The notes under the pieces: generated by a model
Database searches by the model: none
What the model was told of the DNA's origin: nothing
What the model saw: only the letters and a program-made list of their open reading frames with translations
Program-made: the position numbers and the translations under genes
In this document: piece after piece, positions 32,363-42,867 of the stretch
How the letters are laid out: the number at the start of each line of letters is the position of its first letter
Position numbering within the stretch: position 1 is the first letter of the stretch
Assembly: GCA_903928745.1 (NCBI GenBank)
Contig: CAIYRR010000069.1
Span: 1 to 42,867, forward strand
Reading direction: 5' to 3'
DNA from: an uncultured Actinomycetes bacterium
GTDB lineage: Bacteria; Actinomycetota; Actinomycetes; Nanopelagicales; Nanopelagicaceae
Length of the DNA: 42,867 nucleotides

Positions 32363-33550
32363 ATGAATATCGTCGTAAAGGAGCCCCAGCGCACCCCGTT
32401 GCGCGAGCGCCTCTCCCGCGATGAGTGGCGCCGGATCTACGCGATGTTCGGCTTTATCGCCTTTCTCCATGTAGCCGGAGCCGCCCTAATGTTCGCCGCT
32501 ACGAGCGGTCATTACAAACTCTCTGATGGATCACTTTTTGGTTGGGGTACCGCTGCATTGGCCTACACGCTTGGTATGCGCCATGCCTTTGATGCTGATC
32601 ATATTTCTGCGATTGATAACACGACGCGCAAACTCATGAGCGAAGGCAAGCGCCCATTAGCTGTTGGTTTCTTTTTCTCATTGGGACATTCATCAGTGGT
32701 AGCGACTCTCGCGATCTTGCTCAACTTTGGGATCAAGGCGCTAGGTGTACAACTTAAGGATCAGAACTCATCCCTCCACCATTACACGGGGCTTATTGGG
32801 ACAACCGTCAGTGGAACATTCTTGATGCTGATTGCAATATTGAATTTAGTTGTTTTGATTTCCATTCTTCGAGTCTTTTTCGATATGCGCAAAGGCATGT
32901 ACAACGAAGAAGAGTTAGAGAAGCATCTAAATTCGCGCGGCTTGTTGATGCGATTCTTTGGTCCGATTGCACGTCGAATTGATGCAAGTTGGAAGATGTA
33001 TCCACTTGGAATTCTCTTTGGTCTTGGATTTGATACGGCAACGGAAATCGGTCTTCTGGTTCTTGCTGGATCATCTGTTATTGCAGGTTTGCCATGGTGG
33101 GCAATTCTTTCATTGCCGTTCTTCTTCGCTGGTGGAATGAGTTTGCTCGACACTATCGATGGTTCCTTTATGAACTTCGCATATGGTTGGGCCTTTTCAA
33201 AGCCAGTGCGAAAGGTCTATTACAACATTGTTATCACTGGTCTTTCTGTTGCCGTCGCACTCTTTGTTGGTGGTTTAGAAATCTTGCAAGTAATTAGCAA
33301 GCAACTTAATCTCTCAGGCGGCTTCTGGAATTACACGAATAGTTTTAATCTCAACTCAGCAGGTTACATAATCGTGGGGCTTTTCGCTGTTGTATGGATA
33401 GTTGCTCTAACTCTTTGGCGCTACGGCAAGGTTGAAGAACGCTGGCACAACATGGCGCATGCTTCACAATTGCAACGTGGTGAACAAACCGATCACGCTA
33501 AAGCGGGTATTGAACTAGGGCCTATTAGGGATGCTTTTCAAATCGATTAA
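32363..33550 (+). CDS. Nickel/cobalt transporter, NiCoT (HoxN/NixA) family
   Basis: 395 aa; signature RHAFDADHISAIDNTTRKLM, FFFSLGHSSVV, LGFDTATEIGLL, FFAGGMSLLDTIDG. Confidence 0.95.
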   Translation: MNIVVKEPQRTPLRERLSRDEWRRIYAMFGFIAFLHVAGAALMFAATSGHYKLSDGSLFGWGTAALAYTLGMRHAFDADHISAIDNTTRKLMSEGKRPLAVGFFFSLGHSSVVATLAILLNFGIKALGVQLKDQNSSLHHYTGLIGTTVSGTFLMLIAILNLVVLISILRVFFDMRKGMYNEEELEKHLNSRGLLMRFFGPIARRIDASWKMYPLGILFGLGFDTATEIGLLVLAGSSVIAGLPWWAILSLPFFFAGGMSLLDTIDGSFMNFAYGWAFSKPVRKVYYNIVITGLSVAVALFVGGLEILQVISKQLNLSGGFWNYTNSFNLNSAGYIIVGLFAVVWIVALTLWRYGKVEERWHNMAHASQLQRGEQTDHAKAGIELGPIRDAFQID

Positions 33551-34436
33551 ATCGAATTCTCCCCTGGCTTATTGCCGCACCTAGCAAAACAATTACGCCA
33601 CCTAATGGCTCATACCAAGTGACGCTCTCCCCTAAAAAGAGGACTCCGACTGCAACAGCAACGACAGGGGTCACGTAGGTTACCGAGCTAGCGATTGCAC
33701 TTCCGGCAGCTGCCAAGATTTGAAAATTCCAAATGTATGCAAAGCCAGTACCAAATACCCCGAGGGCAATCATCGCAAATACGGGTCCCGGGCGGTAATA
33801 ATCTCGTGCGATTCCATCTATCAAATAGAAAGGTAAGAGCGTTGCTGCAGCTAGAGAAACTTGAGTTGTCGCAGCGGCTTCAGGCTTCAATTTATAGGGA
33901 AGTACAAATTTGCGTGAATACGGAAATGAAAAACCATAACAAAGGACGGCAAGAAGTAGCGCAAGAATTGCTGAAACTGGATTGGAGCCAAGACCTTGCC
34001 ACGCACCTAGGACAGTAAGAACGCCAATGAATCCGATCGCTAACCCCGCGACCTGATAACTCTTAGCTTTTTCCTCGCGGAAGACAATCATCATTACCGA
34101 CAAGGTCATCAAAGGTGTTACCGCATTAATAATTCCTGCCAAGATCGATGTCACATGAGTTTCGGCAATAGCAAAAAGAACGCCCGGAACAACATTGAGC
34201 AACATGGCAACAACCCACAAATGCGCCCAAATTCTCTTATCGGTTGGCAGAGAAATTTTGCGAGACTTACTGATCACTACAAGGGCAAGCGCGCCTAGGG
34301 CTGTTCGGCCAAAGGCAACTCCTACAGGGGTAAGGAATTCAAGACCTAATTTAATGAATATGAAAGAACAACCCCAGACCATCCCGAGTGCGACATAAGC
34401 AGGGAGCCAAGATTTGTCATTTAACGAAGAAGGCAC
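33525..34436 (-). CDS. EamA/DMT-superfamily transporter
   Basis: 303 aa, ten hydrophobic segments, two EamA repeats; GTG start at 34436. Confidence 0.9.
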   Translation of the reverse strand: MPSSLNDKSWLPAYVALGMVWGCSFIFIKLGLEFLTPVGVAFGRTALGALALVVISKSRKISLPTDKRIWAHLWVVAMLLNVVPGVLFAIAETHVTSILAGIINAVTPLMTLSVMMIVFREEKAKSYQVAGLAIGFIGVLTVLGAWQGLGSNPVSAILALLLAVLCYGFSFPYSRKFVLPYKLKPEAAATTQVSLAAATLLPFYLIDGIARDYYRPGPVFAMIALGVFGTGFAYIWNFQILAAAGSAIASSVTYVTPVVAVAVGVLFLGESVTWYEPLGGVIVLLGAAISQGRIRFNRFEKHP

Positions 34437-34463
34437 CGCGCAAGGTTAGCGCAGTGCCTTCTT
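34427..34463 (-). terminator. Hairpin downstream of ctaE copy 1, likely intrinsic terminator
   Basis: AAGAAGGCAC-C-GCGC ... GCGC-A-GTGCCTTCTT long stem with loop AAGGTTA; lies between the ctaE stop and the eamA start. Confidence 0.6.
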
Positions 34464-34482: not shown

Positions 34483-35091
34483 TTATTTGAAGGAGAGTGC
34501 AAATGCTCCAAATAATGAGGAGACGGTCATCCAGATCCACCACACATTGACGATATCTACGTGCCAATGATCAGCAACATAAATACCCAAACGCGAGCGG
34601 TTCCAGTTACCCAACGCGATAAATACCGTGAAGAGCAAGTGCATGACATTGAGTCCGGCGATCAAGAAATAGCAGGATGCGTAAGCACCCATTGTGATGG
34701 TGAATGAGGTGCCATTCATCAAAATCACTTGATAGGCCAGCGCCACAACGCTTGCAACTAAAGCAAGCAACGAACCCAATTTCAGCTGAGTCTGATTCTT
34801 GGCACGTGCTCCAAGTAGTGCGTAGCGATGTGTCACCAATCCGAGTGCTGCGATGATGGTGACATACCAAGCACCGGCAACGGCAACTGGAGTTGTTGCA
34901 GCAGCGGTGTCACTCGCTTTGGGCAACCACAATCCATTCACATTTTGCTGACGCAGGTAGAAGTACACAAAGAGCACGCTCAGTGCGAAGGCAATATCTG
35001 CGACAAGGATCAGAACAACGCCAAGGCGATTGCGCGATCCCACTGCATCTGGATGTTCGTGATGTGCGGTGTGTGCGTGATCGACGCTCAT
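34483..35091 (-). CDS. ctaE: Cytochrome c oxidase subunit III (copy 1)
   Basis: 202 aa; five TMs, DHWHVDIVNVWWIWMTVSSLFGAFALSFK C-term typical of COX3. Confidence 0.93.
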   Translation of the reverse strand: MSVDHAHTAHHEHPDAVGSRNRLGVVLILVADIAFALSVLFVYFYLRQQNVNGLWLPKASDTAAATTPVAVAGAWYVTIIAALGLVTHRYALLGARAKNQTQLKLGSLLALVASVVALAYQVILMNGTSFTITMGAYASCYFLIAGLNVMHLLFTVFIALGNWNRSRLGIYVADHWHVDIVNVWWIWMTVSSLFGAFALSFK

Positions 35092-36968
35092 GATTGTGCC
35101 TTTCCGTAACCGTACGCATCTTCAGTAACTACTGGGAGAACATCAAAGTTCTCTAGCGGAACAGGGTAGGCAACGCTCCACTCAAGAGACTTGGCGAACC
35201 AAGGATTTTGTGTGGCCTTGGTTCCCCAGACCCATGAAACTACAACGCCATGAAGCAAGACCAACATGCCCGTCATGATGATGTAGGCGCCCATGGTCGT
35301 GATGGAATTTCCCTTGTCGTAGAAGGCTGATATTGCGCCAACACGACGAGGTTGACCAGCAAGACCAACCATGAACATTCCCATGAAGGCGATATTGAAT
35401 CCGACTTGAGTGATCCAGAAAGCAGTCCAACCAAGTTTCTTGTCGAACATGCGTCCTGTCATCTTAGGGAACCAATACACCAAAGCACCGATGGCCGAAG
35501 TTAATCCAGCGCCCATTAACGTGTAATGGAAGTGTGCGGTCACGAAAATCGACCCGTGAAGCGCAGCATCGGCAGAAACATCAGAGAGGTAGATGCCAGT
35601 AATTCCACCGATGGTGAAGTTAAAGAGCACGGCATAAATGGCCGCGGTCGGCAGAGTGATCCACACTCGGCCACGCCAGAGAGTGCCGATTAGCACCAGG
35701 AACAACATTCCTGTTGGAATCGAAATTAATTCGGTCGTCAACATAAATGGTCCATTAAGGAGTGGAGCCCAACCACTGACATACAAGTGGTGCGCCCACA
35801 CAAGAACAGATAGTCCCGAAATTCCAGCGATTCCCATGATTGCCAAGTTGAAGCTAAAGAGCGGACGTCGCGTAAAGACTGGCGCCATCTCCATCAACGC
35901 AGCAAGTGCAGGAATCAAGATGACGTAGACCTCAGGGTGTCCCATGATCCAGAACAAGTTCTCGTAAAGCCATGGACTACCGCCACCGCGCACATCAAAG
36001 AATGTTGACCCTGTTGCGCGATCTAGTCCTGAGAGAACTTGGGAAAGGAAGAAGACGGGAAACACGGGAAGAGCCAATGCAACAGATGCGACAACACCGT
36101 AAATAAAGATTGGTGTGCGATTCCATGTCATTCCCTTAGCGCGCATTTTCACTGCAGTTGCTGTGATATTTGCACCGGCAACCATTGTTGAAATTGCGAA
36201 GATACAGATGGCCATGATGAAGCCATCCATTCCTGGAGGCGCCTGATTTTCCAGTGGGTTATATGCAGACCAGCCTGTTGGAATTCCACCTAACCAGATG
36301 GATGAAAGTAGAGGTGGAACAGCTGCAACAACTAACCAGAAACTCAAAGCGTTAAGGCGAGGGAAAGCCATATCGCGTGCACCAATCATGATTGGCATGA
36401 TGAAGTTTCCGAAAGGTCCTGTAATCATGATGATTGCACCAACGACCATCGTGATTCCGTGAAGACCCACGACGGTGTTGTAAGTCTGAGGTTGTAACCA
36501 GTTACCACCGGCATGACCCAAGTTAGTGCGGATCAACATTGCAAGAACGCCGCCAACAAAGAAGATGACCATAGTGATTACTAAATATTGAATACCAACG
36601 ACCTTGTGATCTGTTGTATATCGGAAATAGCGTTTTACTCCTTGATCTTTTCCGGCATAAAACAAGGTCTCATCATGTGTGAGATCTTTTCCAAGTAACC
36701 AACGAAATGGTCCAATGAGTGCGCCGATTCCTGTCATGAAACCAACGAACCAACCGATCATCGCAATGAATACTTCTTGATCCATACGGGTCTTGATGTA
36801 TGAACCATCTGTATTCACTGGCAAGAAAGTCCGTGCGAGATACCAAGCAAGGACTGCGCCAACAATGCCGAGGAGTAAACCGGTGATGATGCTGAGTCTT
36901 TCAATGAGCGCTTTCTTTGGCGCTGATGGACCTGCTGATGCTGGTCGATTTGTCACTGTTGTCATCAG
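35088..36968 (-). CDS. ctaD: Cytochrome c oxidase subunit I (copy 1), heme-copper oxidase with N-terminal extension
   Basis: YTTDHKVVGIQYL, FGNFIMPIMIGARDMAFPRLNALSFW, FWIMGHPEVY, WAHH, AHFHYTLMG. Start revised to MTTVTNRPAS for ATGA overlap with ctaC (ORF track to 36995). Confidence 0.95.
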   Translation of the reverse strand: MMTTVTNRPASAGPSAPKKALIERLSIITGLLLGIVGAVLAWYLARTFLPVNTDGSYIKTRMDQEVFIAMIGWFVGFMTGIGALIGPFRWLLGKDLTHDETLFYAGKDQGVKRYFRYTTDHKVVGIQYLVITMVIFFVGGVLAMLIRTNLGHAGGNWLQPQTYNTVVGLHGITMVVGAIIMITGPFGNFIMPIMIGARDMAFPRLNALSFWLVVAAVPPLLSSIWLGGIPTGWSAYNPLENQAPPGMDGFIMAICIFAISTMVAGANITATAVKMRAKGMTWNRTPIFIYGVVASVALALPVFPVFFLSQVLSGLDRATGSTFFDVRGGGSPWLYENLFWIMGHPEVYVILIPALAALMEMAPVFTRRPLFSFNLAIMGIAGISGLSVLVWAHHLYVSGWAPLLNGPFMLTTELISIPTGMLFLVLIGTLWRGRVWITLPTAAIYAVLFNFTIGGITGIYLSDVSADAALHGSIFVTAHFHYTLMGAGLTSAIGALVYWFPKMTGRMFDKKLGWTAFWITQVGFNIAFMGMFMVGLAGQPRRVGAISAFYDKGNSITTMGAYIIMTGMLVLLHGVVVSWVWGTKATQNPWFAKSLEWSVAYPVPLENFDVLPVVTEDAYGYGKAQS

Positions 36969-37732
36969 GCGTTTCCTCCTTGGTTTTGAACCCACGCGTC
37001 ATAATCTGCTTGGCTCACAACGTGTACTTTCTTCTGCATGTACGCGTGATAGAGGCCGCAAAGTTCTGCGCACCGCAAGTCATACACGCCAATCTTGTTT
37101 GGTGTTGTACCTGTCTCTGTCACATAACCTGGGTTCGCATCGACCTTGATACCCATCTGAACAATCCAGAAAGAGTGCATCACATCGGTACTTGTTACGT
37201 GAAATAGAACTGGCTTATTTACAGGTAGATAAAGATCAGCACTTTGTGCGCCACCGTTATCTACATACTTAAAGTTCCAAACCCATTGTTGCCCTGTGAC
37301 ATCAATATTGATTGGGTTGGCAGTTCGAAGTTTATTCTCATCTGCCTGGACCAAAACCATTCCGTAGATAACCGCAAAGAGGCAGAGCAGCGTGGATACA
37401 ACTACCCATGTTGCTGCAACTCTTGGACTGTTTCGGATTTCATGTTCAGCCTCAGGCGGTGGGTTGTCGCCAAAGTGACGCTGACCCAACAGCGTTGTAA
37501 TTGTTAGTGCGGCAACCAAACCTGCAACAGGAGCCGCAGCCCATGTAAAGATTTTCACCATATTTATGGTGTTCGACATATTTTCAGATGCAGGTGAACC
37601 CATCGCGCGCGATTGAATTATTGAAGCGGTATATCCGATGATCGCTGTAAAAATTACCCAAAGAAATATTGCTTTCTTTGCATCAGAGCGCTTCCACCAA
37701 GAAGGACGTTGTGTTGTTTCTAGTTCAGACAT
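36965..37732 (-). CDS. ctaC: Cytochrome c oxidase subunit II (copy 1), CuA-containing
   Basis: 255 aa; GQQWVWNFKY, DVMHSFWI, CuA motif CAELCGLYHAYM. Confidence 0.93.
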   Translation of the reverse strand: MSELETTQRPSWWKRSDAKKAIFLWVIFTAIIGYTASIIQSRAMGSPASENMSNTINMVKIFTWAAAPVAGLVAALTITTLLGQRHFGDNPPPEAEHEIRNSPRVAATWVVVSTLLCLFAVIYGMVLVQADENKLRTANPINIDVTGQQWVWNFKYVDNGGAQSADLYLPVNKPVLFHVTSTDVMHSFWIVQMGIKVDANPGYVTETGTTPNKIGVYDLRCAELCGLYHAYMQKKVHVVSQADYDAWVQNQGGNA

Positions 37733-37744
37733 GTGCGCGCCCCC

Positions 37745-38434
37745 TTATGCTTTCACGACGGAGAAATTACCGGCCATATAACCTTGTGTGGACATTGGTC
37801 CACCAAAGCGAGCTGTTGTTCCATCACCACATGGGTATTCGCAGTTCCAAACATATTCGCCGGCATCACCGGTGATAAATGAAAATGTGACAACTCGTGG
37901 TGATGTTGTGTATCCACTATCAGGCATATCTGCCTCTTCAACTGCAGGTAGGGGAACACTGACAAAGAGTTGAGATTTTGCATCTGCTAAACCATGCAGT
38001 GTAAAAGTATGTCCAACATGCTCTGGATCAACATTGGTGATTGATTGCCCATCCAATGTCGCCGTTCCATCGAGAGTTCCATGAACAGTTGCAAAGAAGT
38101 CGTTACTCAAACGTTCACCTGAGTCGTACTGCTTAATGGTGATCGTGATGACTGAATGCGCAGGAACTTTAAAATTAGTTACAGGTCCGTAGGAAACCCA
38201 ATCAGGATGAACACCACCATCGGCGCCATGACTTCCTGACATGGAATCTGGATATGCGGACATATCGAGTGTGTAGTGAGGCAACGTTCCCTCTGGCGTC
38301 TCCATTGTTCCTGCAGGAGTTGCTTCAAGCACTCGTGAATCATTCTTTGCACTTGCGACATACGTGCCGATGCCAGCGATTACCGCTGCGCCAAGAATGA
38401 CTGTTCCGAGTGCGGCGATATACCGCTTATTCAT
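37745..38434 (-). CDS. Membrane-anchored cupredoxin-like protein with CEYPC motif (copy 1)
   Basis: Start at MNKRYIAALG; N-terminal anchor; HVGHTFTLHG and GEYVWNCEYPCGDGTTARFGGPMSTQGYMAGNFSVV resembling a COX2/cupredoxin C-terminus. Confidence 0.82.
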   Translation of the reverse strand: MNKRYIAALGTVILGAAVIAGIGTYVASAKNDSRVLEATPAGTMETPEGTLPHYTLDMSAYPDSMSGSHGADGGVHPDWVSYGPVTNFKVPAHSVITITIKQYDSGERLSNDFFATVHGTLDGTATLDGQSITNVDPEHVGHTFTLHGLADAKSQLFVSVPLPAVEEADMPDSGYTTSPRVVTFSFITGDAGEYVWNCEYPCGDGTTARFGGPMSTQGYMAGNFSVVKA

Positions 38435-38439
38435 AGAAA

Positions 38440-38452
38440 CCCCCCTCGAGGT
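38440..38452 (-). promoter_or_regulatory. Translation-initiation leader shared by both oxidase operons (RBS)
   Basis: Minus strand ACCTCGAGGGGGG 5 nt upstream of ATG; identical 13-mer upstream of copy 2. Confidence 0.6.
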
Positions 38453-38540
38453 GAACCAGGTCACAGGAGGGTAAGGGTTGGCTCCCTATACGTTAAGGGA
38501 AATTCGGAAGGGTACCTCTCAAACTGAGAATTAGCCTATA

Positions 38541-38574
38541 AAAAACCACCCAGCGCACGCGGCGCAGGGTGGTT
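38541..38574 (-). terminator. Rho-independent terminator between oxidase operon copy 2 and copy 1
   Basis: Minus strand AACCACCC-TGCGCCGCGTGCGCT-GGGTGGTT followed by TTTT, just downstream of the ctaE copy 2 stop. Confidence 0.88.
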
Positions 38575-38592
38575 CTTTAGGGATTTCCTGAT

Positions 38593-39207
38593 TTACGCGA
38601 AAGAAAGCGCGAAGGCTCCAAGCAACGACGAAACGGTCATCCAGATCCACCAGACGTTGACGATATCTACATGCCAATGATCAGCAACATAGATTCCTAG
38701 TCGTGAGCGATTCCAGTTACCGAACGCAATAAATACTGTGAGTACTAAGTGCAAAGTATTTAGCGCGGCGATTAAGTAATAGCAAGATGCGTAGGCGCCA
38801 GAAGTGGTTGTAAATGGCGCGCTACTAATTTGCATGAACTGGTAGATAAGCGCAGCAAGACTAAATACAAGTGCGACGCCGCCGCCCAAAACTAATTGAG
38901 TGCGATTAGCTGCACGAACACCTTTGAGCCCGTAGAAATGTGCAGCTGCGCCAAGGCCAGCGAGTGCAGTGACATACCAAGTTCCTTTACTTGATAACGC
39001 AAGTACAGCTGGTGAATCTGGCGTTGCTGCCGGCAACCACATGTCATTGACGTTTTGACCTTTTAGATAAAAGAAAACGAAAAGAACACTGAGCGCCATT
39101 GCAATATCTGCAACCAGAATCAAAATCACTCCAAGACGATTGCGACTTCCAACTACATCTGGATGTTCGTGATGTGGGTTGGAGTGTGAATGAGTTTCGA
39201 CGCTCAT
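38593..39207 (-). CDS. ctaE: Cytochrome c oxidase subunit III (copy 2)
   Basis: 204 aa; strongly similar to copy 1 including DHWHVDIVNVWWIWMTVSSLLGAFALSFA. Confidence 0.93.
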   Translation of the reverse strand: MSVETHSHSNPHHEHPDVVGSRNRLGVILILVADIAMALSVLFVFFYLKGQNVNDMWLPAATPDSPAVLALSSKGTWYVTALAGLGAAAHFYGLKGVRAANRTQLVLGGGVALVFSLAALIYQFMQISSAPFTTTSGAYASCYYLIAALNTLHLVLTVFIAFGNWNRSRLGIYVADHWHVDIVNVWWIWMTVSSLLGAFALSFA

Positions 39208-41084
39208 GATTGTGCCTTTCCGTAACCGTAAGGATCAGAAGTAATTACAGGCAAAGTTTCAAAGTTCTCAAGTGGAACAGGATTAGCTACTGTCCATTCG
39301 AGAGTTTTTGCTTGCCATGGATTCATCGGTGCCTTCACGCCATTTCTCCAAGAGGAGATAACCCCGTGCAAGAGAACCAACATTCCAGCCATGATCGTGT
39401 AAGCGCCCATCGTCGTAATGAGGTTCCCCTTATTAAAGATGGAGGCGTATGACTCAACACGTCGTGGCTGACCTGCAAGGCCAACCAGGAACATTCCGAT
39501 GAATGCGACGTTGAAACCAATTTGAACGAGCCAGAATGAAACCCAAGAAAGAGTCTTATCAAACATGCGCCCAGTCATCTTTGGGAACCAATAAACAAGT
39601 GATGCCAATGCACCCGTAAGTCCTGCGCCCATCAAGGTGTAATGGAAGTGCGCAGTGACGTACATAGATCCATGCAAGAAAGCATCTGCTGGAACATCAG
39701 AGAGATAAATTCCTGTGATTCCACCAATCATGAAATTCCAAAGAAGTGCGAAGATCGACATCAACGGCATCGTCATCCAAAGACGACCGCGCCACAAAGT
39801 TCCGATAAGCACCAGGAACAACATTCCTGTCGGAATCGAAATCAACTCGGTCGTCAACATAAATGGCGCATTGAGCAATGGAGCCCAACCGCTTATATAC
39901 ATATGGTGAGCCCAAACAAGTACAGATAGTCCGCTGATTCCAGCGATACCCATGATTGCCAGGTTAAAGCTAAAGAGAGGGCGACGAGTAAATACTGGCG
40001 CCATCTCCATAAGTGCTGCAACGGATGGAATCAAGATTACATAGACCTCAGGGTGACCCATGATCCAGAACAAGTTTTCATACAACCAACCGCTACCTCC
40101 GGCCGCCGAATTGTAGAACGATGTAGCAAAAGCCCGATCCATAGCGGACATGATTTGCGATAAAAAGAAAACAGGAAAAGCAGGAAGTGCCAAGGCAACA
40201 GATGCCACAACACCGTAAATAAAGATTGGTGTGCGATTCCAAGTCATTCCCTTTGCACGCATCTTCACAACTGTGGTTGTGATATTTGCGCCAGCGACCA
40301 TTGTGGAGATTGCGAAAATACAAATGAAGGCGATGTAACCGTTCATTCCAAGTCCGGCTTGTGATGCCAATGGATTGTAAGCAGACCAGCCTGTTGTGAT
40401 ACCTCCGGTGAAGAAGGAAATAAAGACAGGTGGAATTGCCGCAACAATCAACCAAAAACTGAGTGCGTTAAGACGAGGGAATGCCATGTCTCTCGCACCA
40501 ATCATGATTGGCATGATGAAGTTACCGAATGGCCCCGTAATCATGATGATGGTTGCGACGATCATGATGATTCCGTGCCAACCAACAATTGCGTTATATG
40601 CCTGCGGATGAATCCATCCGCCTTGTGGGTGACCTAGGTTGGTGCGAATCAACATTGCGAGCGTGCCACCAACAAACAAGATGATGATCGTGATCACCAA
40701 ATATTGAATACCCACAACTTTATGATCAGTTGTGTAGCGGAAATATCTTTTGATTCCTTGATCTTTTCCAGCAAGGAACATGTTCTCGTCATGATTGAGA
40801 TCTTTACCGAATGCCCATCGGAATGGGCCAATGAGTGCTCCGATTCCTGTCATGAATCCCACGAACCATGCAATGAGTGACATCAAGGATATTTTGTCTT
40901 CACGATTGAAGAAGGACGCTGTTTCAGCATCTTGCGGTAAGAAATGCAGCGCAAGTTGCCAGATAACAATTGCAGAAACGGTGCCTACTACTAACGCGGT
41001 GACAATATTCAATCTCTCAATTAGAGGCTTGCGACCTGAGGCATCCCCTGGAGCCGAGGCTGGACGATTCATCATTGTTGTCAT
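39204..41084 (-). CDS. ctaD: Cytochrome c oxidase subunit I (copy 2)
   Basis: 626 aa; same motifs as copy 1 (MIGARDMAFPR, GHPEVY, WAHH, AHFHYTLMG). Confidence 0.95.
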   Translation of the reverse strand: MTTMMNRPASAPGDASGRKPLIERLNIVTALVVGTVSAIVIWQLALHFLPQDAETASFFNREDKISLMSLIAWFVGFMTGIGALIGPFRWAFGKDLNHDENMFLAGKDQGIKRYFRYTTDHKVVGIQYLVITIIILFVGGTLAMLIRTNLGHPQGGWIHPQAYNAIVGWHGIIMIVATIIMITGPFGNFIMPIMIGARDMAFPRLNALSFWLIVAAIPPVFISFFTGGITTGWSAYNPLASQAGLGMNGYIAFICIFAISTMVAGANITTTVVKMRAKGMTWNRTPIFIYGVVASVALALPAFPVFFLSQIMSAMDRAFATSFYNSAAGGSGWLYENLFWIMGHPEVYVILIPSVAALMEMAPVFTRRPLFSFNLAIMGIAGISGLSVLVWAHHMYISGWAPLLNAPFMLTTELISIPTGMLFLVLIGTLWRGRLWMTMPLMSIFALLWNFMIGGITGIYLSDVPADAFLHGSMYVTAHFHYTLMGAGLTGALASLVYWFPKMTGRMFDKTLSWVSFWLVQIGFNVAFIGMFLVGLAGQPRRVESYASIFNKGNLITTMGAYTIMAGMLVLLHGVISSWRNGVKAPMNPWQAKTLEWTVANPVPLENFETLPVITSDPYGYGKAQS

Positions 41085-41860
41085 CAGGCTGCTCCCTCAA
41101 GTGCTGCTCTTGTTTTAAGCCACGAGTCATAATCGGCTTGGCTCACCACGTGAACTTTGTTTTGCATATATGCATGGAGTAATCCGCAAAGTTCTGCGCA
41201 TCGGATATCAAAAACGCCAATCTTGTCTGGGGTAACCGCTGTTTCGGTGACATAACCTGGATTTGCATCCATCTTTATGCCCATTTGAACAACCCAGAAT
41301 GAGTGCTTTACATCTTTACTTGTTATGTGAAAAACAACTGGTTTATTAACGGGTAAATAGAGAACTTCACTACGTACGCCATCACTTTCTGGATAGTCAA
41401 AATTCCATACCCACTGCTGTCCAGTGACATTGATGTTGATTGCTTTGGCATCAAGCAAAGATTTTGCATCTTTCTGTAAAACAATTAAGCCAGTTATAAG
41501 TGCAAATAAACATAAAAGGGTTGAAACGATTACCCATGTCGCTGCCGCGCGTGGGCTGTTGCGGATCTCGTGATCTGCTTCCTCTGGTGGATTGTCGCCA
41601 TAGTGACGATCACCAAGAAGTGCCGTGACGGCTAGTGCAGCAACCAAACCAGCGACAGGGGCTGCAGCCCAAGTAAAGATTCCCATCAGTGACTTCACTG
41701 AGGCCATTACTTCAGAAGCTGGTGCCCCAATAGATCGCAACTGAACTACGGTGCCGACATATCCGATGATTGGCGTAAGAATTACCCAAAGGATTGCGGT
41801 CTTCTTTACATCCGCGCTTTTCCACCACTGTGCTTTATTTGATGTATGCAATTCGCTCAT
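41084..41860 (-). CDS. ctaC: Cytochrome c oxidase subunit II (copy 2)
   Basis: 258 aa; GQQWVWNFDY, DVKHSFWV, CuA motif CAELCGLLHAYM. Confidence 0.93.
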   Translation of the reverse strand: MSELHTSNKAQWWKSADVKKTAILWVILTPIIGYVGTVVQLRSIGAPASEVMASVKSLMGIFTWAAAPVAGLVAALAVTALLGDRHYGDNPPEEADHEIRNSPRAAATWVIVSTLLCLFALITGLIVLQKDAKSLLDAKAININVTGQQWVWNFDYPESDGVRSEVLYLPVNKPVVFHITSKDVKHSFWVVQMGIKMDANPGYVTETAVTPDKIGVFDIRCAELCGLLHAYMQNKVHVVSQADYDSWLKTRAALEGAA

Positions 41861-41870
41861 AGTGAGTCCC

Positions 41871-42560
41871 TTAACCCTTCACAACGTTGAAGTGGCCGGA
41901 CATGTAACCCATGCTGGACATTGCGTTACCGAATTTCGCGATTGTTCCGTCGCCACATGGGTATTCGCAGTTCCATACATATTCACCAGCATCGCCGGTG
42001 ATCACAGTGAAGACAGTTACGTTAGGAGTTTTTGTGTAGCCCTCCTCGGGCATATCTTCTTCTGCAACAGCTTTCATCGGAACGCTAAAGAAGAGTTCGC
42101 TCTGGCTACTTGCAATACCGTGCACGGTAAATGTGTGGCCTACATGGTCTGAAGGTACCGACGTAATTCGTTCACCATTAAGAGTTGCGCTGCCATCAAT
42201 CGTTCCGCGAATTTTTCCGAAGAAATCATTGTTGAGTGTTTCTCCGCCATCGTAATTTGTTACCGTGATGGTGATCGCAGAATGTGCGGGTACTTCAAAG
42301 TTTGTGATGGGTCCATAACTCACCCAATCAGGATGCGCGCCGCCATCAGTGCCGTGCATGCCACCCATGCTGTCTGGGTAGGAGGAAATATCTAGGGTGT
42401 AATGCGGCAACGTTCCTTGCGGAGTTTCCATTGTGCCTGCTGCCGTAGCTGCCAACACTCGTGAATCATTCTTTGCATTTGCAACATATGTGCCGATGCC
42501 AGCGATTACCGCTGCGCCAAGAATGACTGTTCCGAGTGCGGCGAAAAACCGCTTGTTCAT
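41871..42560 (-). CDS. Membrane-anchored cupredoxin-like protein with CEYPC motif (copy 2)
   Basis: 229 aa; HVGHTFTVHG, GEYVWNCEYPCGDGTIAKFGNAMSSMGYMSGHFNVV. Confidence 0.82.
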   Translation of the reverse strand: MNKRFFAALGTVILGAAVIAGIGTYVANAKNDSRVLAATAAGTMETPQGTLPHYTLDISSYPDSMGGMHGTDGGAHPDWVSYGPITNFEVPAHSAITITVTNYDGGETLNNDFFGKIRGTIDGSATLNGERITSVPSDHVGHTFTVHGIASSQSELFFSVPMKAVAEEDMPEEGYTKTPNVTVFTVITGDAGEYVWNCEYPCGDGTIAKFGNAMSSMGYMSGHFNVVKG

Positions 42561-42765: not shown

Positions 42766-42867
42766 ATGAACATGGGCCCAATCACCGACTTCTGGACCAG
42801 TTGGCAATTCGCCCCCGCAATCACCATTCCTTTATTGATCGCCGAATATCTCTACCTTCGAGGGACG
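42766..42867 (+). CDS. N-terminus of a membrane protein, possibly CtaG-type cytochrome c oxidase assembly factor (truncated by window edge)
   Basis: Translation MNMGPITDFWTSWQFAPAITIPLLIAEYLYLRGT; resembles the start of caa3-type CtaG proteins and is divergent from a cox operon. Confidence 0.5.
   Translation, partial: MNMGPITDFWTSWQFAPAITIPLLIAEYLYLRGT

Follow-up and report, generated by a model that had tools for sequence, protein, structure and literature searches.

Two old lineages of a cupredoxin-linked terminal oxidase operon in tandem in a freshwater Nanopelagicales genome

Nanopelagicales (acI and their relatives) rank among the most abundant bacteria of fresh waters, and a search by title or abstract found no paper on duplicated oxidase operons in this group. 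The closest described enzymes are terminal oxidases of the '2TM' family-A type. According to Degli Esposti et al. 2021 (PMC8239418), the genes for 2TM COX1 cluster with caa3_CtaG, and a figure legend of the same paper places membrane-bound cupredoxins in 2TM clusters.

The stretch of DNA analysed (the window, 42,867 nucleotides) is the whole of contig C69 of a 1.65 Mb metagenome-assembled genome (MAG), 88% complete in 132 contigs. The host, labelled G000, is a freshwater, acI-related member of Nanopelagicales, to which other Nanopelagicales MAGs and acI genomes (IMCC19121 and IMCC26103 among them) are the closest relatives. On the minus strand at 34483-42560, two cupredoxin–COX2–COX1–COX3 operons, both intact, follow each other head to tail, with copy B occupying 38593-42560 and copy A occupying 34483-38434. 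This order and position had been given in a sequence-only reading, and are borne out by the open reading frames (ORFs), the Pfam matches and the constant spacing (4.11-4.13 kb) of the nucleotide repeats between the copies. The features of the locus are as follows.

42766..42867, plus strand: 5' end of the divergent ctaG (caa3_CtaG-type assembly factor), cut at the contig end; tblastn with the ctaG of locus L033, 67% over 36 aa
41871..42560, minus strand: copy B cupredoxin-like protein of 229 aa with an N-terminal membrane anchor; ORF, fold predicted on the copy A homologue
41084..41860, minus strand: copy B COX2, complete CuA motif; Pfam COX2 4e-19, TIGR02866 above cut-off, CuA ligands invariant
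39204..41084, minus strand: copy B COX1, 626 aa, fitting the '2TM' type; Pfam COX1 1e-114, haem, CuB, Tyr and Glu residues invariant, K354 absent
38593..39207, minus strand: copy B COX3; Pfam COX3 1e-6, 4-nt overlap with COX1
38435..38592, minus strand: spacer between the copies, 158 nt, with the copy B terminator and the copy A upstream region and Shine-Dalgarno (SD) site
37745..38434, minus strand: copy A cupredoxin-like protein, 229 aa; ORF, which a GTG at 38464 could extend
36965..37732, minus strand: copy A COX2, complete CuA motif; Pfam COX2 2.5e-18
35088..36965, minus strand: copy A COX1, 625 aa, fitting the '2TM' type, of the faster-evolving lineage; Pfam COX1 1e-116
34483..35091, minus strand: copy A COX3; Pfam COX3 2e-8
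34430..34460, minus strand: terminator-like hairpin 3' of copy A; dG -22.7 kcal/mol, z -4.2
33525..34436, minus strand: EamA transporter, conserved on the 3' side of the locus; Pfam EamA, synteny
32363..33550, plus strand: NicO/NiCoT transporter, conserved on the 3' side of the locus; Pfam NicO, synteny

The copies encode proteins of 229/229 (cupredoxin), 255/258 (COX2), 625/626 (COX1) and 202/204 aa (COX3) in A/B, which are 72%, 66%, 75% and 67% identical, respectively, and the Pfam COX1, COX2 and COX3 matches are strong for both alike. Of the ATGA overlaps named in the sequence-only reading, the one at COX1/COX3 (4 nt) holds; COX2 and COX1 overlap by 1 nt. The tandem is known from one MAG contig, which stops ~300 nt beyond copy B, so that the ctaG side is thinly sampled.

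The same gene order, near-equal lengths and constant 4.1 kb spacing are what a tandem duplication of one operon within the lineage, followed by divergence, would leave, and this was the view of the sequence-only reading. The phylogeny makes it highly improbable. In the concatenated tree, copy A groups with the operon of G010 (support 100) within one oxidase lineage, and copy B with those of G009 and G020 (98-99) in another, which is sister to the acI oxidases. Sisterhood of A and B was rejected (delta lnL 694, AU p = 1e-5), as was monophyly of the oxidase within the genus (AU p 1.7e-4). Single-gene trees placed copy B in the same clade in 4/4 cases and copy A always in the same lineage, strongly with G010 in three; in the cupredoxin tree this pairing is not tight. 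The grouping of B with acI is strongly supported in the concatenated tree and more weakly in some single genes. The division into two lineages is seen in each of the four genes. A duplication within the genus is thus rejected, and the idea could be rescued only if the event predated the separation of the genus and acI. A tandem duplication in the ordinary sense is therefore not supported: the copies are not sisters, and the lineage of B is closer to the acI oxidases than to the lineage of A. An apparent tandem 'duplication' can thus consist of two lineages that have been separate since ancient times.

A species tree was built from FtsH and ClpC (rpoB was left aside, being only a fragment in G000), and places G000, G010, G014, G009 and G020 as a tight cluster inside a monophyletic genus. 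The oxidase types therefore cut across species relations. In relatives this locus is occupied by one operon only, which may be of either type, with ctaG divergent upstream and, in most, EamA and then NiCoT downstream. Among 80 loci of public genomes, of which 39 have at least 3 kb on both sides, no tandem was seen. In G010, the A-type operon lies at a contig end and a hidden second copy was considered; this was discarded, as the two contigs meeting there (C25/C14, loci L119 and L120) overlap inside the same cupredoxin gene, which places a single A-type operon next to ctaG. The overlap spans ~140 nt with two mismatches near its end, apparently a strain-variant assembly break. The A-type enzyme is the sole 2TM oxidase of G010.

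G002 is the only other genome with both types, which lie on separate contigs. Its native locus (L061) holds an A/C-type operon, and on contig C60 (L036) a B-type operon is accompanied by a ctaG of its own, and an AbiE-type toxin-antitoxin-like gene pair comes after it. This B-type operon may be a gained module or a binning error.

That the tandem is unique among relatives and comes from a MAG, and that both cupredoxin 5' ends have 55 identical nucleotides in common, raises the idea of an assembly chimera, in which a B-type contig of another species was joined to an A-type contig. We regard this as improbable. The sequence across the join (B-COX3, spacer, A-cupredoxin) is unique, has a terminator and an SD of its own and is not part of the shared repeat; the distance of B from G009 is near the genome-wide G000–G009 distance, as expected of a native B; and the region on the ctaG side of B has its closest counterpart in G010. 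In the spacer, a hairpin at ~38543-38575 (dG -22.1 kcal/mol, z -3.2) followed by a T run forms the copy B terminator, and the SD-side sequence ACCTCGAGGGGGG is the same as that before copy B and in near relatives. Congeners match the spacer only over 26 nt at its SD side. The hairpin 3' of copy A is kept in the downstream alignment of G010, G014, G009, G020 and G007. The two operons do not share an upstream region or a terminator. A sigma-70 promoter scan found no promoter-like site on the operon strand, with fewer matches than in shuffles.

The sequence-only reading had held that its view would fall if relatives lacked the tandem and the assembly broke between the copies, or if the copies belonged to unrelated clades acquired separately. 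About half of this was found: relatives lack the tandem and the copies sit in separate clades, but both clades fall within a single oxidase family and occupy a single locus, and no sign of assembly error is seen at the junction.

We therefore think it probable, with real room for doubt, that two old oxidase lineages stand in tandem at a ctaG–oxidase–EamA–NiCoT locus of which relatives each lost one. The two lineages would have separated before the genus diversified, and the two-copy state was probably present at least in the ancestor of the five-species cluster. It would then have been resolved by loss, G010 keeping A, G009 and G020 keeping B, and G000 both. Loss alone does not explain every genome, because the distance between the G014 operon and copy A is greater than expected from the species tree. 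Its oxidase (L058) differs from copy A by an operon dN of 0.136 against a species background of 0.035, and the operon history of G014 differs from that of G010.

The second lineage could have entered by a very old duplication or by an old transfer from an acI-side relative via homologous flanks. The latter is a specific version of the preferred explanation, with a B-type operon landing beside a resident A-type one to give tandem xenologues that were then sorted by loss; we put it a little short of an even chance. In its favour are the sister position of the B clade to the acI oxidases (98-99), the rejected monophyly of the oxidases of the genus and the homology of the locus flanks in acI, and the G002 operon beside AbiE-like genes looks like such a gained module. 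However, the flanks of B in G000 look native and not donor-like, oxidase distances compared with the genome background reveal no recent donor, and an ancient duplication with sorting predicts much the same pattern.

Divergence from the nearest orthologues was compared with the genome background. For B and G009, dN 0.059 and dS 1.53 stand against 0.044 and 1.56 for G000–G009, and for A and G010, dN 0.065 and dS 0.95 against 0.032 and 1.38; the dS values are near saturation, so that dating from them gives rough numbers. As these divergences are near the background, both copies look long resident in the genome, and neither appears to be a recent arrival. To this extent the earlier claim of an old rather than passing event stands, with synonymous sites near saturation and both copies under purifying selection: the ratio dN/dS against the nearest orthologues is 0.02-0.11, with 0.068 (A–G010) and 0.038 (B–G009) for the operon. 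The A lineage (copy A and G010) evolves faster. At COX1 sites at least 90% conserved elsewhere, it carries 28 changes, common to copy A and G010, compared with 1 in B and 5 in G014; one of the 28, M394L, adjoins the CuB histidines. This faster rate might suggest that one copy is a decaying remnant, which we find scarcely credible, since both copies are open with all ligands kept, operon dN/dS is ~0.04-0.07 against the nearest orthologues, and the A-type enzyme is all that G010 has of this type.

Patches of high DNA identity had also been taken as evidence of continuing exchange between the copies, a claim that comparison with other genomes does not support. Compared with cross-genome pairs of A-type and B-type operons, the A–B identity within G000 exceeded theirs by 5 points in one window of the alignment and by 10 points in none, and this excess is no greater than for other pairs. 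The most striking high-identity patch, cupredoxin codons 1-32 (42465-42560 and 38339-38434), is equally strong with single-copy species: synonymous identity there is 86-93% among both G000 copies, G010, G011 and G007, compared with ~40-60% in the rest of the gene, and ~50% with G009 and G020, although synonymous sites outside the patch are saturated. RNA-level constraint or exchange between species may explain it.

The COX1 proteins fit the '2TM' family-A type because of two extra N-terminal helices, found by hydropathy at 26-44 and 66-84 in A and at 27-45 and 67-85 in B, and at 26-47 and 60-80 in a structure model of copy A. The family-A haem and CuB ligands and cross-link tyrosine (H169, H343, Y347, H392, H393, H478 and H480) are invariant in 52 sequences, as are GHPEVY and the D-channel aspartate. 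Position K354 (P. denitrificans numbering), that of the usual K-channel lysine, is L, I or M in 52/52 COX1 sequences of the family; the lysine is present in the canonical CtaD of G000 itself (C1:81150). Against TIGR02891, the canonical CtaD equivalog, the two COX1 proteins score 497 and 512 bits, under the 670.75 cut-off. A caa3_CtaG gene, a mark of 2TM clusters, lies upstream in divergent orientation in relatives; in the window it is cut short. Both operons thus appear to encode the known 2TM type without the K-channel lysine, an assignment drawn from helices, residues and ctaG. In COX2, the CuA motif is complete (H186, C221, E223, C225, H229 and M232 invariant), which points to a cytochrome c or cupredoxin oxidase, not a quinol oxidase.

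The first gene product matched no Pfam family. A confident model of the copy A protein (pLDDT 83.5) has a predicted cupredoxin fold, with auracyanin as best match. Residues H142, C198, C202, M214 and M220 are invariant in the family and H147 nearly so. The type-1 blue copper ligand set is absent, with C-x3-C and no histidine between C198 and M214; in its C-x3-C the protein is closer to CuA than to type-1 copper. The cupredoxin would be the electron donor: a periplasmic protein with an N-terminal anchor, it would pass electrons to CuA of COX2 and on through haem a to the haem a3–CuB centre of COX1, where O2 would be reduced. The proton path would be D-type, lacking the usual K-channel lysine. 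Activity is expected of both enzymes, each being encoded by an operon with a separate upstream region and terminator, and we infer pumping as well.

Beside the two 2TM-type oxidases, G000 has a canonical aa3 (G000:C1:81150-82664, qcrB close by; named from sequence) and a cytochrome bd (G000:C29), so that the earlier count of two A-type oxidases was too low. This makes four terminal oxidases in a small genome, and specialisation is therefore reasonable; division by oxygen, light or donor is plausible, and would agree with the faster change in copy A and with the separate upstream regions and terminators of the operons. In a fuller reading, which we offer as rather unlikely, copy A would be functionally altered (the 28 COX1 changes, with Met to Leu by the CuB histidines) and kept with a conservative B for a different oxygen or donor regime, both being fed by a cupredoxin with an unusual His/His/Cys/Cys/Met copper centre between type 1 and CuA. 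A locus holding either or both old lineages offers a natural comparison of the role of each version in small genomes.

Two further observations concern this respiratory context. Beside qcrB and the canonical aa3 operon, a small secreted protein (L222:10367-10999 on G000:C1) carries a CuA-like motif (HGFW...CNILCGRGHAGM). In G002, a cydA remnant (G002:C84:16743-16937) has two in-frame TGA stops; cydA is intact in most congeners.

Among known systems, the single-copy locus of acI (IMCC19121, CP015605; IMCC26103, CP015604) shares the four genes, their order and the ctaG, EamA and NiCoT neighbours, and its COX1 is 83-85% identical to copy B; it differs in having one copy and a ~25-residue insertion in the cupredoxin of both strains. 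The actinobacterial aa3 (CtaD/CtaC, bcc-aa3 supercomplex) has the same family-A active site and a CuA subunit II, but shows ~37% identity, lacks the extra N-terminal helices and retains the K-channel lysine. Auracyanin B (1QHQ/1OV8) shares the cupredoxin fold and a similar G-x-Y-x-x-x-C-x-x-P signature; in the protein described here the second His ligand is replaced, there are long insertions, and an extra invariant Cys at +4 is CuA-like. The 2TM oxidases, as described in PMC8239418, share the two extra COX1 helices, the adjacent caa3_CtaG, a membrane cupredoxin nearby and a non-canonical K-channel. In comparison, the present enzymes belong to freshwater Actinobacteria not known as iron oxidisers, and two diverged operons stand in tandem. 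A cupredoxin-linked 2TM oxidase lacking the K-channel lysine is thereby placed in common lake bacteria, in a genus whose members carry a canonical aa3 as well and, for the most part, bd.
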